Shown here in pieces: positions 2,657 to 51,977 of a stretch of 51,977 nt of DNA. The number at the start of each line of letters is the position of its first letter. Position 1 is the first letter of the stretch. The DNA lies in contig MEWX01000026.1 of the NCBI GenBank assembly GCA_001775485.1, positions 1-51,977 of the forward strand, in the 5' to 3' direction. The stretch is from Candidatus Adlerbacteria bacterium RIFCSPLOWO2_01_FULL_51_16 (GTDB lineage Bacteria > Patescibacteriota > Minisyncoccia > Phycocordibacterales > SBAW01). A program made the position numbers and the translations under genes. The notes beneath the pieces were generated by a model that saw only the letters and a list, made by a program, of their open reading frames with translations, did not search any database and was not told the DNA's origin.

Positions 2657-4474
2657 CTATAGCTCTACGCGATAGTGTCGCGCCCATACCTGGAAGGTCA
2701 GTATGGCCCAAAGTAGATGGAGGTGGTAGCCCCCGCTTTCGTGCTCCAAAAACATTTTTTGAACTTCCTGCCAATCAAAGAGTGCAGCGGTAGGCGCGTA
2801 GTACTCTGCGGTGAGCGCCTCTTGCGCAAATGAGCGGAAGGGTTCAGCTCTCAACCACTTTGCGCCGGGAGAAAACCATCCGCGCTTGGGCTGCGAAAAA
2901 AGGTATTTCGGCAATCTGTACGCGAACGCTTTCTTAAGAATCAGTTTGGTGCCCCCGAGCGACACCTTCTTACTTTGGGGAATTTGTGCGGCAAGTTCTA
3001 CAACTTTTTTCCCCAAGAGCGGCACGCGCGCCTCGAGCCCCGCGGACATCGTCATTGTGTCGGTCATTGCGAGCGACTCATCCGCAAGCCAGGTCTGCCG
3101 GTCAACTTCCATGAATTCGTTTTCAAATTCTTGAGAAGAGCCCGAAGAAAGATAGGGCGCAAAAACTTCTTCCACGGGTGGAAGCGTGACTCCCGAGGCG
3201 AGAGCGCGCTGTATCGTGCTTTTTTTCTGCGCCATAAAAAGAGCGATGCGTTCCGTCCCCTTTGTATTAAGTTTGCGGAATGGCCCGTAGGAGGCGAGTA
3301 TACGGCGCAGGAGTGAGGGGGTAAAACGCCGGTACATGCTCGCGATTAAACTCCGGCGGTAACGCTCGTAGCCGCCGAAGAGCTCGTCGCCCCCGTCTCC
3401 GCCCAAAACCACAACCGCGGTTTGCCTTGCGAATTGCGCGAGCGCGTACATAGGCAGTATCGTCGGATTTGCGATTGGTTCTCCCAAATGTGCGACCGCT
3501 TCAGGAAATATCCTGACCGCATCGGAAGCGGAAAACAGCACCTCGTGATGGCGGGCGCCATACAGCTGCGCGGTTCTCCGTGCAAGATCAAAGTCGGCGT
3601 TAAATTTTTCTTTTTGTTCTTCTTCCGTTAACTCAAACCCGACCGAAAATGTATTCACATTTTTGTGCACCCGGCAAACCGAGTCGAGCACGACGCTTGA
3701 ATCAATGCCGCCGGAGAGATAGACACCAACAGGGCGGTCGGAAATAAGTTGCCGCTTAACCGACTCATCTATTTCTTTCTCAACCCGCTCCCGCCATTCC
3801 CCCGCCGCAAGCGGCCGCTTGGTGTCCCGCGCGTTCCAATAGCGCTCAAATGTAAGCGCTCCGCTCCGGACATAACCGCGCGATGCAGCCGGAAGCTTCA
3901 TAACTCCCTCAATCATCCCCTCCGGAGAGGGAGGGTAGAGAAGCTGCAGATATAGCCCGAATGATTTTTTATTGAGCCGGCGCGGAATGGGGTGCACCAA
4001 AAGCCCCGCGATTTCAGAAGAAAAAATAAACTTACCCTCTTTCTGCCAATAAAAAAATGGTTTGATGCCCTGATGGTCGCGCGCAACAAAGAGTTCTTTT
4101 TTTTCTTTGTCCCATAGCGCAAGAGCAAACATCCCGTCAAAATGTTCAACACACTCCTTACCCCAGCGAGTGTAAGCCGCAAGTATCACCTCCGTATCCC
4201 CCGTTGTTTTAAACGGATAGGGCGCAAGTTCTTCCCGCAACTCTTTGAAATTATAAATCTGTCCGTTAAAAACGATTGCGTAGCGCCCGCTTGCGTCGTG
4301 CATCGGTTGGTTAGCTTCTGCGGAGAGGTCGAGTATTGCCAGGCGGTTGTGCGCAAGCGTGATACCTTCCTGCGTGTATATCGCGGTCGCGTCCGGGCCC
4401 CGGTGTTTGGTCGCCTCATTCATTGCTCTGCCTAGCGCCTCATCGCCCCAGGTAAAGCCATTTATTGAACACAT
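2657..4474 (-). CDS. asnB: Asparagine synthase (glutamine-hydrolysing)
   Basis: 605 aa; MCSINGF N-terminal nucleophile Cys, HRGPDA, VYLSGGIDSSVV PP-loop motif. Confidence 0.93.
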   Translation of the reverse strand: MCSINGFTWGDEALGRAMNEATKHRGPDATAIYTQEGITLAHNRLAILDLSAEANQPMHDASGRYAIVFNGQIYNFKELREELAPYPFKTTGDTEVILAAYTRWGKECVEHFDGMFALALWDKEKKELFVARDHQGIKPFFYWQKEGKFIFSSEIAGLLVHPIPRRLNKKSFGLYLQLLYPPSPEGMIEGVMKLPAASRGYVRSGALTFERYWNARDTKRPLAAGEWRERVEKEIDESVKRQLISDRPVGVYLSGGIDSSVVLDSVCRVHKNVNTFSVGFELTEEEQKEKFNADFDLARRTAQLYGARHHEVLFSASDAVRIFPEAVAHLGEPIANPTILPMYALAQFARQTAVVVLGGDGGDELFGGYERYRRSLIASMYRRFTPSLLRRILASYGPFRKLNTKGTERIALFMAQKKSTIQRALASGVTLPPVEEVFAPYLSSGSSQEFENEFMEVDRQTWLADESLAMTDTMTMSAGLEARVPLLGKKVVELAAQIPQSKKVSLGGTKLILKKAFAYRLPKYLFSQPKRGWFSPGAKWLRAEPFRSFAQEALTAEYYAPTAALFDWQEVQKMFLEHESGGYHLHLLWAILTFQVWARHYRVEL

Positions 4475-20932: not shown

Positions 20933-22189
20933 ATGAAGCGCGTTACCTGCCGTATTTCAGGCGAACTACTTGTAGAACTTTTTTCACTTGGCGACTTATA
21001 CATATCTGATTTTCTTCCCAAAGACAGTTCCCCCAGTTCAGCAAAAGTCCCCTTGACCATGATGCTTGCTCCAAAATCGGGATTGGTACAGCTTGCCCAC
21101 ACGGCATCCTTTGACGATATGTACAAGCAATACTGGTACCGCTCGGGTACAAACGAGTCAATGGTCGAAGAATTGAAGCAGATTGCAACGTCTTCAGTAA
21201 AACTCATGAATATGAAACCGGGCGACATATTTGTCGATATCGCCTGCAATGATGGAACACAATTCTCCTTTGTCGACCCGAGTATCGTCCGTATCGGTTT
21301 TGACCCAGCAAAAAATACATATAAAGAGGCAGACAAGACGCGATTTGATCTCTTTGTGAATGATTATTTCTCCGCAAAAGCATACCGCGAATCAAAATGG
21401 GGCTCAAAGAAAGCAAAAGTCATAACAACGATTGCAATGTTCTATGACCTGGAGGACCCGCACGTATTTGTTGAAGATGTAAAAGAAATTATGGACGACA
21501 ACGGGTTGTGGGTAGTGCAGATGAGTTATTTGCCGCTGATGTTAAAACAACTCGCATTTGATAATATTTGCCACGAGCACTTGGAGTACTACACGCTCCA
21601 ATCCTTTAAATACCTGCTCGACCAGCACGACATGCAAATAGTCGATTGCCAGCTCAACGACGTTAACGGCGGGAGTTTCCGCGTGTATATACGGAAAAAC
21701 AAAGCAGATCCCACAATCTTTGCGACCGCCCCCTATCGAGATGTTGCCAGGTACCGTGTCGAGTCAATTCTTACGCACGAAGAGACGCTCAAACTTAAAG
21801 ACCCGAAAACCTTTTTGAAGTTTTATAAAGACGCGTGCGACTTGCGCGACAAAACACTTGCCTTTATGAAGGCCGAGAAAGCGAAGGGTAAAAAAATTTG
21901 GGCCTACGGCGCATCAACCAAGGGCAACACTCTTTTGCAGTGGTGGGGCATCGACAATACGTTGCTTGACGGTATTGCCGAACGCCAGCCGATGAAATAC
22001 GGTCTCAAGACGGTCGGCACCAATATTCCTATTTTCTCCGACGAAGAGATGCGCAAAGCGGAGCCCGACTACTTGCTGGTACTGCCCTGGCATTTTATAG
22101 AATCTTTTGTGCGACGCGAACAGGAATTTCTAAACCGGGGAGGTAAATTCATTCTCCCCTGTCCCCATTTTGAAGTGATTGGGAAATAG
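20933..22189 (+). CDS. NDP-hexose C-methyltransferase-type SAM methyltransferase
   Basis: N-terminal CRISGE...LFSLGDLYISDF; DIFVDIACNDGTQFSF; C-terminal IWAYGASTKGNTLLQ and ERQPMKYGLKTVGT. Confidence 0.85.
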   Translation: MKRVTCRISGELLVELFSLGDLYISDFLPKDSSPSSAKVPLTMMLAPKSGLVQLAHTASFDDMYKQYWYRSGTNESMVEELKQIATSSVKLMNMKPGDIFVDIACNDGTQFSFVDPSIVRIGFDPAKNTYKEADKTRFDLFVNDYFSAKAYRESKWGSKKAKVITTIAMFYDLEDPHVFVEDVKEIMDDNGLWVVQMSYLPLMLKQLAFDNICHEHLEYYTLQSFKYLLDQHDMQIVDCQLNDVNGGSFRVYIRKNKADPTIFATAPYRDVARYRVESILTHEETLKLKDPKTFLKFYKDACDLRDKTLAFMKAEKAKGKKIWAYGASTKGNTLLQWWGIDNTLLDGIAERQPMKYGLKTVGTNIPIFSDEEMRKAEPDYLLVLPWHFIESFVRREQEFLNRGGKFILPCPHFEVIGK

Positions 22190-50900: not shown

Positions 50901-50930
50901 AAACCCCGACCGCAAGCGGTCGGGGTTTAC
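50901..50930. terminator. Bidirectional intrinsic terminator
   Basis: AAACCCCGACCGCAAGCGGTCGGGGTTT between convergent ORFs. Confidence 0.87.
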
Positions 50931-51109
50931 TCTATTTTGTGCAACCACCAGAATGGCGGTGGCATATAGAAAAGAGGGTTCGCAGCGGCAAACCACAGAC
51001 GCCAGAGCTGCTCGGTGTTGCTCGTTGTCACGCTGAACCACATTGAAAGAAAGTCAATTCCTGGGGCTTGCTGATGCAGGCCCGCCGTAGCGAACTCATC
51101 CTGCGTCAT
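50927..51109 (-). CDS. Small ORF, 60 aa, unknown function
   Basis: MTQDEFATAGLHQQAPGIDFLSMWFSVTTSNTEQLWRLWFAAANPLFYMPPPFWWLHKIE; strong SD GGAGGTTTGTC before ATG 51109; start internal to the track ORF. Confidence 0.6.
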   Translation of the reverse strand: MTQDEFATAGLHQQAPGIDFLSMWFSVTTSNTEQLWRLWFAAANPLFYMPPPFWWLHKIE

Positions 51110-51150
51110 GACAAACCTCCGTTCTGTCCACTCTAATCGTAGCACGCAAA

Positions 51151-51180
51151 AAAGGAACGCCGACCTCGCGGTCGGCGCTT
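51151..51180 (-). terminator. Intrinsic terminator (minus strand)
   Basis: CGCCGACC-GCGA-GGTCGGCG then TTCCTTTTTT on minus strand. Confidence 0.85.
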
Positions 51181-51214
51181 TTTGTATTTCCGATTGTAAG
51201 TAGCCGAGGATTGC

Positions 51215-51418
51215 TCAGTCCCACCACTTCGCGTTTTTAAGCTTGGGCATCGTGAGCGTAAAACGGACAACGGTCCATACAACGGGAACGAGCATGATCG
51301 TCAGGATGATCCCCGCAAACCAGGTCGCCGCCGTATTGCCTTCGCCTATTTCAGCAGCCAAAGGCGGAATCCAGAAGAGCATCGCGATAGGGCCTATGAC
51401 TCCCAAAAGATAAGTCAT
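51215..51418 (-). CDS. Small membrane protein, 67 aa, two TM helices
   Basis: MTYLLGVIGPIAMLFWIPPLAAEIGEGNTAATWFAGIILTIMLVPVVWTVVRFTLTMPKLKNAKWWD; SD GGGAGGTTGTC before ATG. Confidence 0.65.
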   Translation of the reverse strand: MTYLLGVIGPIAMLFWIPPLAAEIGEGNTAATWFAGIILTIMLVPVVWTVVRFTLTMPKLKNAKWWD

Positions 51419-51511: not shown

Positions 51512-51537
51512 CAAAACCGCCCGATGTGGGCGTTTTG
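51512..51537 (-). terminator. Putative terminator of the 16S transcript (minus strand)
   Basis: Minus strand AAAACGCCCACATCGGGCGGTTTT: GC stem with T-run. Confidence 0.65.
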
Positions 51538-51806
51538 ATTGAGCATTGACACACTTTCAGAGAATTATCCTTCACCCCAAGGGGTTCAGGATCGTCTAGA
51601 AGACGACCTTTCTCTTGTTCCGTTCGGCTTCGCGTTCCTCCCGTTGTACTCAACGGGTACTGGCGAAACCTCTAGTCCCTAACGGTTGGGGGGGCGTACC
51701 GAGTGCAATTTGGGATTAGCACTATCATCCGAGTATCTTGCGATACCCATCGCCATTCAGTTCTATCGTCAATTGAGCGATAGAACGCATTTCATTTGAA
51801 TTATTC
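51538..51806 (-). ncRNA. Hairpin-rich region immediately 3' of 16S helix 45 (trailer, insertion or intron-like; unclassified)
   Basis: Minus strand hairpins: GTTCTATCG/CGATAGAAC (9 bp), GGGTATC-GCAA-GATACTC, GGTTTCGC/GCGAAGCC, CCCGTT/AACGGG, GGTCGTC/GACGATC, ATCCTGAACCCCTTGGGGTGAAGGAT. Confidence 0.5.
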
Positions 51807-51977
51807 CACGACCAGCTTCCGCTAGCCGTGCCTTGTTACGACTTACTCCCTGTCACCGAGTTTACCGTGGTCCCCCTAAGGGAACTTCGGGCACTCCCGG
51901 CTTCCTTGAGTTGACGGGCGGTGAGTACAAGACTTGAGAACGTATTCACCGCGGTATAGCTGACCCGCGATTACTAG
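51807..51977 (-). rRNA. 16S ribosomal RNA, 3' portion (partial; gene continues beyond right edge)
   Basis: Reverse complement CTAGTAATCGCGGGTCAGCTATACCGCGGTGAATACGTTCTCAAGTCTTGTACTCACCGCCCGTC ... AGTCGTAACAAGG, then helix 45 CACGGCTAGC-GGAA-GCTGGTCGTG (51807-51830). Confidence 0.95.

Follow-up and report, generated by a model that had tools for sequence, protein, structure and literature searches.

The anti-Shine-Dalgarno (anti-SD) sequence of 16S rRNA is among the most conserved of bacterial sequences, and the locus described here raises the question of why a 16S rRNA gene with an intact helix 45 should end without one. The window (the whole stretch of DNA analysed, 51,977 nucleotides) is contig C26 of a genome of 608,701 bases in 30 contigs, estimated to be 92% complete, and on its minus strand helix 45 is followed by GAATAATTCAAATG where GATCACCTCCTT would be expected. 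The initial annotation set this against strong SD motifs before several genes of the window and offered four explanations: a ribosome lacking the anti-SD, RNA processing that restores it, another 16S copy, or an assembly junction.

Results

The 16S rRNA gene is genuine and ends without an anti-SD

The Rfam model RF00177 matched positions 51977-51794 of the minus strand with 141.7 bits, the match being cut by the contig end, and it agreed poorly with the model only at the final 13 positions, which are the anti-SD tail. The 10-bp helix 45 stem with its GGAA loop, as first described, was confirmed by folding and by this match (fold z-score of -3.5 for the stretch 51786-51850 that contains it), and the bases directly 3' of it are GAATAATTCAAATGAAATGCG. 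The reported lack of an anti-SD was borne out by the sequence itself, by the mismatch to the RF00177 tail and by relatives: CCTCC stands at the 13-nt tail position in none of the 144 helix-45-matched Paceibacteria (Parcubacteria) 16S ends listed, and CTCC in one (a set of at least 144 loci, selected by helix 45 sequence and not a census). Exact TCACCTCCT is absent from the window and its one-mismatch matches number 7 compared to 6.9 expected, as by chance. This is thus a genuine Paceibacteria 16S rRNA gene whose 3' end has no anti-SD; the features of the locus are collected in Table 1.

Table 1. Features at and downstream of the 16S rRNA 3' end in the window
Feature	Position	Strand	Basis
3' part of 16S rRNA gene, to the end of helix 45	51807..51977	-	RF00177 match and 16S DNA search
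Helix 45, 10-bp perfect stem with GGAA loop	51807..51830	-	fold
13-nt anti-SD tail position, GAATAATTCAAAT replacing GAUCACCUCCUUA, without CCUCC	51794..51806	-	sequence; relatives
H-type pseudoknot, GGAT/ATCC and AGTGC/GCACT	51702..51730	-	covariation and pattern search
3' arm of pre-16S processing stem, GAACGGAACAAGAGAAA	51609..51625	-	17-nt perfect complement to TTTCTCTTGTTCCGTTC
Likely intrinsic terminator of the 16S transcript, AAAACGCCC ACAT CGGGCGGTTTT	51512..51537	-	read from sequence
67-aa ORF, GGGAGGTTGTC before ATG, rare SD-like start	51215..51418	-	no confident family
60-aa ORF, CGGAGGTTTGTC before ATG	50927..51109	-	no family
tRNA-Ile(GAU)	50186-50115	-	
tRNA-Leu	49682-49599	-	

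The gene is split in the assembly, a 16S DNA search of the genome placing its first ~340 nt at C12:412-1 and its 3' part at C26:51794-51977, with the middle (about 940 nt) missing. The end of contig C12 carries a repeat of a 71-nt piece (query 267-337), and no third 16S region besides these was found by this search of the ~92% complete genome, which also yielded a single match to the 16S-end pattern. RF00177 gave no match when run on the whole genome, a limit of sensitivity, and it was the 16S DNA query that recovered both halves. In several genomes of the same genus the 16S match stops near model position 873-902, mostly close to a contig end. In two loci, L020 (G028) and L021 (G038), the 16S matches span 2360 and 2883 bases and so these genes would carry large internal insertions or introns.

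Helix 45 is followed by a pre-16S trailer

The DNA 3' of helix 45 is a pre-16S trailer, as indicated by the leader-complementary block that ends it, and it is made up of variable hairpins, an H-type pseudoknot and this leader-pairing segment. The 3' arm has its partner in the leader of the 16S gene of the same genome, on contig C12, and the 17-nt complementarity between C12 and C26 thus links the two pieces of this gene, arguing strongly against a misjoin at 51806. In 38 complete relatives the longest perfect leader-trailer complement has a median of 16 nt (120-nt leader), and a complement of at least 13 nt was found in 29 of them compared to 1 of 380 shuffled leaders. In the relatives, a block that ends in (A)ACGGAACAARAKAAAG and is reverse-complementary to a portion of the 16S leader lies about 110-270 nt 3' of helix 45, often followed by a terminator-like hairpin, and terminators similar to that of Table 1 lie downstream in many of them.

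In E. coli the leader-trailer stem of pre-16S is cut by RNase III. The stem found here is the usual pre-16S processing stem, with complementarity flanking 16S as in E. coli (10-25 nt), and since RNase III is likewise encoded in the genome (C23:17615-17343) we infer that it cuts this stem; the mature 16S end would probably be trimmed to a few nucleotides from helix 45. Where the trailer differs from that of E. coli is in its length (about 180 nt) and in its conserved H-type pseudoknot, and no intron or other RNA family was matched in it.

The pseudoknot reads GGAT-GAT-AGTGC-TA-ATCC-CAAATT-GCACT (51730-51702). Across 13 congeners 96.6% of its cells are paired, with 17 double-change cells compared to 4.6 in shuffles, and pairing falls sharply when the register is slid. 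A strict search for patterns of this kind had matches in 98 of 132 trailers, compared to 75 of 396 shuffled ones, some of the matches being ordinary hairpins misread, and a similar element could be read by eye in some anti-SD-keeping relatives. Our guess is that it acts in maturation of the 3' end.

SD-guided initiation is not detectable in the genome

The SD motifs pointed out in the initial annotation (GGAGGT before 51109 and 51418, AAGGAG before 16389 and 23713) are present in the window, but they did not stand as a sign of SD use, being not above chance genome-wide. Among 343 ATG-started long ORFs over 559 kb of the genome, with starts called mechanically, SD 4-mers precede the ATG in 10% compared to a background of 9%, so that genome-wide scoring, which had been suggested as a check, gave no enrichment (33/343 versus 32 expected). 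In another comparison the fraction was 11.2% in the genome and 12.0% in shuffles, and GGAGG at -15..-4 was seen in 2 of 295 ORFs, while the same method applied to E. coli gave 41% versus a background of about 10%. SD-guided initiation is thus not detectable in this genome, and the apparent paradox of a missing anti-SD beside strong SD motifs in the window dissolves. A replacement anti-SD was considered and rejected, as 5-mers complementary to GAATAATTCAAATGAAATGCG show no consistent enrichment before starts.

Anti-SD-keeping members of the class barely exceed background themselves (10.4% versus 8.2%), which suggests that SD use was probably lost first and that the CCUCC core decayed afterwards.

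When every ORF of 40 aa or more was taken, GGAGG preceded the ATG 57 times compared to a mean of 43.8 and a maximum of 52 for permuted motifs, and this slight excess may reflect a small set of SD-like genes. The 67- and 60-aa ORFs (50927-51418, minus strand) are adjacent and share a near-identical leader, GACAGAA(A/C)GG(G)AGGTT(T)GTCATGAC, and they count among the genome's few SD-like starts of textbook form; the larger has a weak CrgA-like match (E 0.009). Small ORFs separate helix 45 from the two tRNA genes, which are located about 1.6-2.1 kb downstream. The 23S match falls on a different contig, C12, indicating that the rRNA genes are not in the usual compact operon.

A -10 box is positioned as expected for leaderless transcription

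Enrichment before starts is seen for TATAAT-like motifs. A -10 box starting at -15..-12 was found in 59 of the 343 ORFs compared to 5.0 expected (Poisson p about 1e-41), so that 17% of long ORFs have the box 12-15 nt from the ATG versus 1.5% background. In a run over 295 ORFs the peak was exactly at -12 (23/295 ORFs versus 1.3 per position). With a box at -12, transcription would begin on the A of the ATG and yield a leaderless mRNA, suggesting that many genes are probably read as such. Candidates in the window are at 4474 and 22846 (minus) and at 20933 and 36752 (plus); ORFs with a box were not clearly more concentrated at the head of gene runs.

In anti-SD-less genomes the signal reaches 16.6% versus 2.5% background, and in class members that keep the anti-SD it reaches 9.3% versus 4.0%, a difference between the groups (Fisher p 2e-4) to be read with the genomes not being independent and their AT content differing. 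Two anti-SD-keeping relatives (G518, G117) also have the leaderless-type signal.

Loss of the anti-SD is lineage-wide

The alignment with 16S ends of relatives proposed in the initial annotation gave no canonical tail among the helix-45-matched relatives listed, which on GTDB contigs include Nomurabacteria, Kaiserbacteria, Zambryskibacteria, Adlerbacteria, Taylorbacteria, Lloydbacteria and others. One match is labelled Gastranaerophilales, yet is of the same sequence type as the Parcubacteria ones.

For the class as a whole a pattern with the tail left free was run on 157 genomes, 109 of which yielded a 16S end: 36 have the CCTCC core, 15 a remnant (CATCTCC or TTTCTCC, for example) and 58 none, the relatives here and in our other counts not being statistically independent. 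By family (56 in this sample) the anti-SD is kept in 18, missing in 30, and present as remnants or a mixture in 8. Every sampled member of the window's order is without it, apart from a second 16S end in G229, a genome which has one end lacking the anti-SD and one that is canonical; the canonical end, whose helix 45 differs, is probably contamination. The loss is lineage-wide and no artefact.

In other classes of the phylum GGATCACCTCCTTT is mostly kept among the matches listed. Genomes of family f102 in another class (G134, G177, G298, G315 and others) have an eroded anti-SD, GGAACACTTCCTTACCAGGGAA, and the hairpin that follows carries a matching change on its other side; this is perhaps a second lineage drifting from CCUCC.

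Three further ideas were set aside. A hairpin directly after helix 45 is not a universal element, being only weak in anti-SD-less genomes (a stem of at least 5 bp in 31% versus 16% of shuffles, compared to 69% versus 7% in anti-SD-keeping ones). Loss of Era, which binds GAUCACCUCC and is missing from most CPR (PMC10582724; PMC12641178), does not discriminate, as there was no clear Era in 24 of 25 genomes tested with and without the anti-SD alike, and the lone match over the cut-off (G105) combines two GTPase domains in a single frame and resembles Der. Nor does loss of bS21, with weak matches in both groups.

Discussion

We consider it very probable that the anti-SD has been genuinely lost after SD use was abandoned, with initiation now leaderless or SD-independent. 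Once SD-guided initiation had been abandoned the anti-SD would decay, starts would be recognised on leaderless mRNAs or otherwise without an SD, and genes lacking a -10 box would presumably use some other SD-independent route. The first option of the initial annotation, a ribosome lacking the anti-SD, is supported by its absence from the sampled order and from over half of the sampled class and by the lack of SD enrichment.

That the structured trailer is instead retained, giving a mature 16S with a ~200-nt 3' extension whose pseudoknot replaces the anti-SD tail, would fit the covariation of the pseudoknot across many Parcubacteria and seemingly (by eye) its presence in anti-SD-keeping relatives. 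It is unlikely, however, as the end segment is perfectly paired with the leader, which is typical of processing stems removed by cleavage, as the hairpins vary widely in length and sequence, and as such an extension would probably block the mRNA exit site. A second, canonical 16S gene might hide in the portion missing from a genome about 92% complete, and relative G229 does show such a gene, but the search of our genome returned only the two halves of one gene and the 71-nt repeat at a contig end, the G229 copy, with its different helix 45, looks like contamination, and SD use is absent regardless; this suggested explanation found no copy to sustain it and is very unlikely.

Processing that restores the anti-SD, by intron splicing or by trans-ligation of an anti-SD exon to helix 45, draws on the frequency of 16S introns in CPR (PMC12641178). 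Against it no intron family was matched even at relaxed thresholds, the genome holds just two copies of TCACCTCCT, a number not exceeding that of a reversed-pattern control and with surroundings that do not resemble 16S, there is no SD enrichment that would require an anti-SD, and an ordinary processing stem ends the trailer, making this earlier proposal extremely improbable. An assembly chimera or contamination fusing a 16S fragment to unrelated DNA might be suspected from a contig that ends within the 16S gene and from a gene in two pieces with a gap, but the junction first suspected is hardly credible when more than 140 assemblies continue past helix 45 into the same type of sequence and when a 17-nt match links the trailer arm to the leader in its own genome. 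Genuine loss after the abandonment of SD use thus remains our preferred reading.

Mycobacteria keep an anti-SD. As in leaderless lineages such as mycobacteria (PMC4633059) and Haloferax (PMC3986360), the -10 box of this genome would place the transcription start at the ATG, although archaeal leaderless promoter elements differ from a -10 box and here leaderlessness is suggested by promoter positions; Nanoarchaeia are a leaderless lineage too, according to a 2024 survey (PMC10783764). Like those of Bacteroidota (PMC6847099), these ribosomes leave SD motifs unused and an A-rich stretch precedes the starts, but Bacteroidota mostly retain the anti-SD (PMC6847099) that is gone here. Bacteria without a CCUCC anti-SD have been described before, in 128 organisms (PMC6107228) and, in the 2024 survey, in 112 "SD-scarce" organisms including Campbellbacteria and Wolfebacteria, both Parcubacteria (PMC10783764), so that the loss itself was already known in two members of the group. 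Known CCUCC-less bacteria likewise have an intact helix 45, no CCUCC tail and no SD enrichment, in common with their relatives; what differs here is that the loss is order-wide in our sample, extends to more than half of the sampled class and forms a graded series of erosion, and that there is a leaderless promoter signature, whereas the accessible part of the survey gives its two single Parcubacteria without mention of leaderless promoters (PMC10783764). Incomplete annotation of the 16S 3' end is common in CPR (PMC12641178), and our literature search, outside which many subscription journals lay, found no report of the extent of anti-SD loss, of leaderless transcripts in CPR or of the trailer pseudoknot.

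A wider proposal, which we put forward as possible but tentative, is that a large part of the Paceibacteria has switched from SD-guided to mostly leaderless or SD-independent initiation, that the anti-SD was lost probably several times, and that the trailer meanwhile evolved its conserved pseudoknot, which guides 3'-end maturation without Era. As canonical, eroded and absent anti-SDs coexist in the Paceibacteria, the order of loss and replacement can be tested by comparison within the class, and errors may arise across this large group both from gene callers that rely on SD motifs and from annotating 16S genes as far as a CCUCC.
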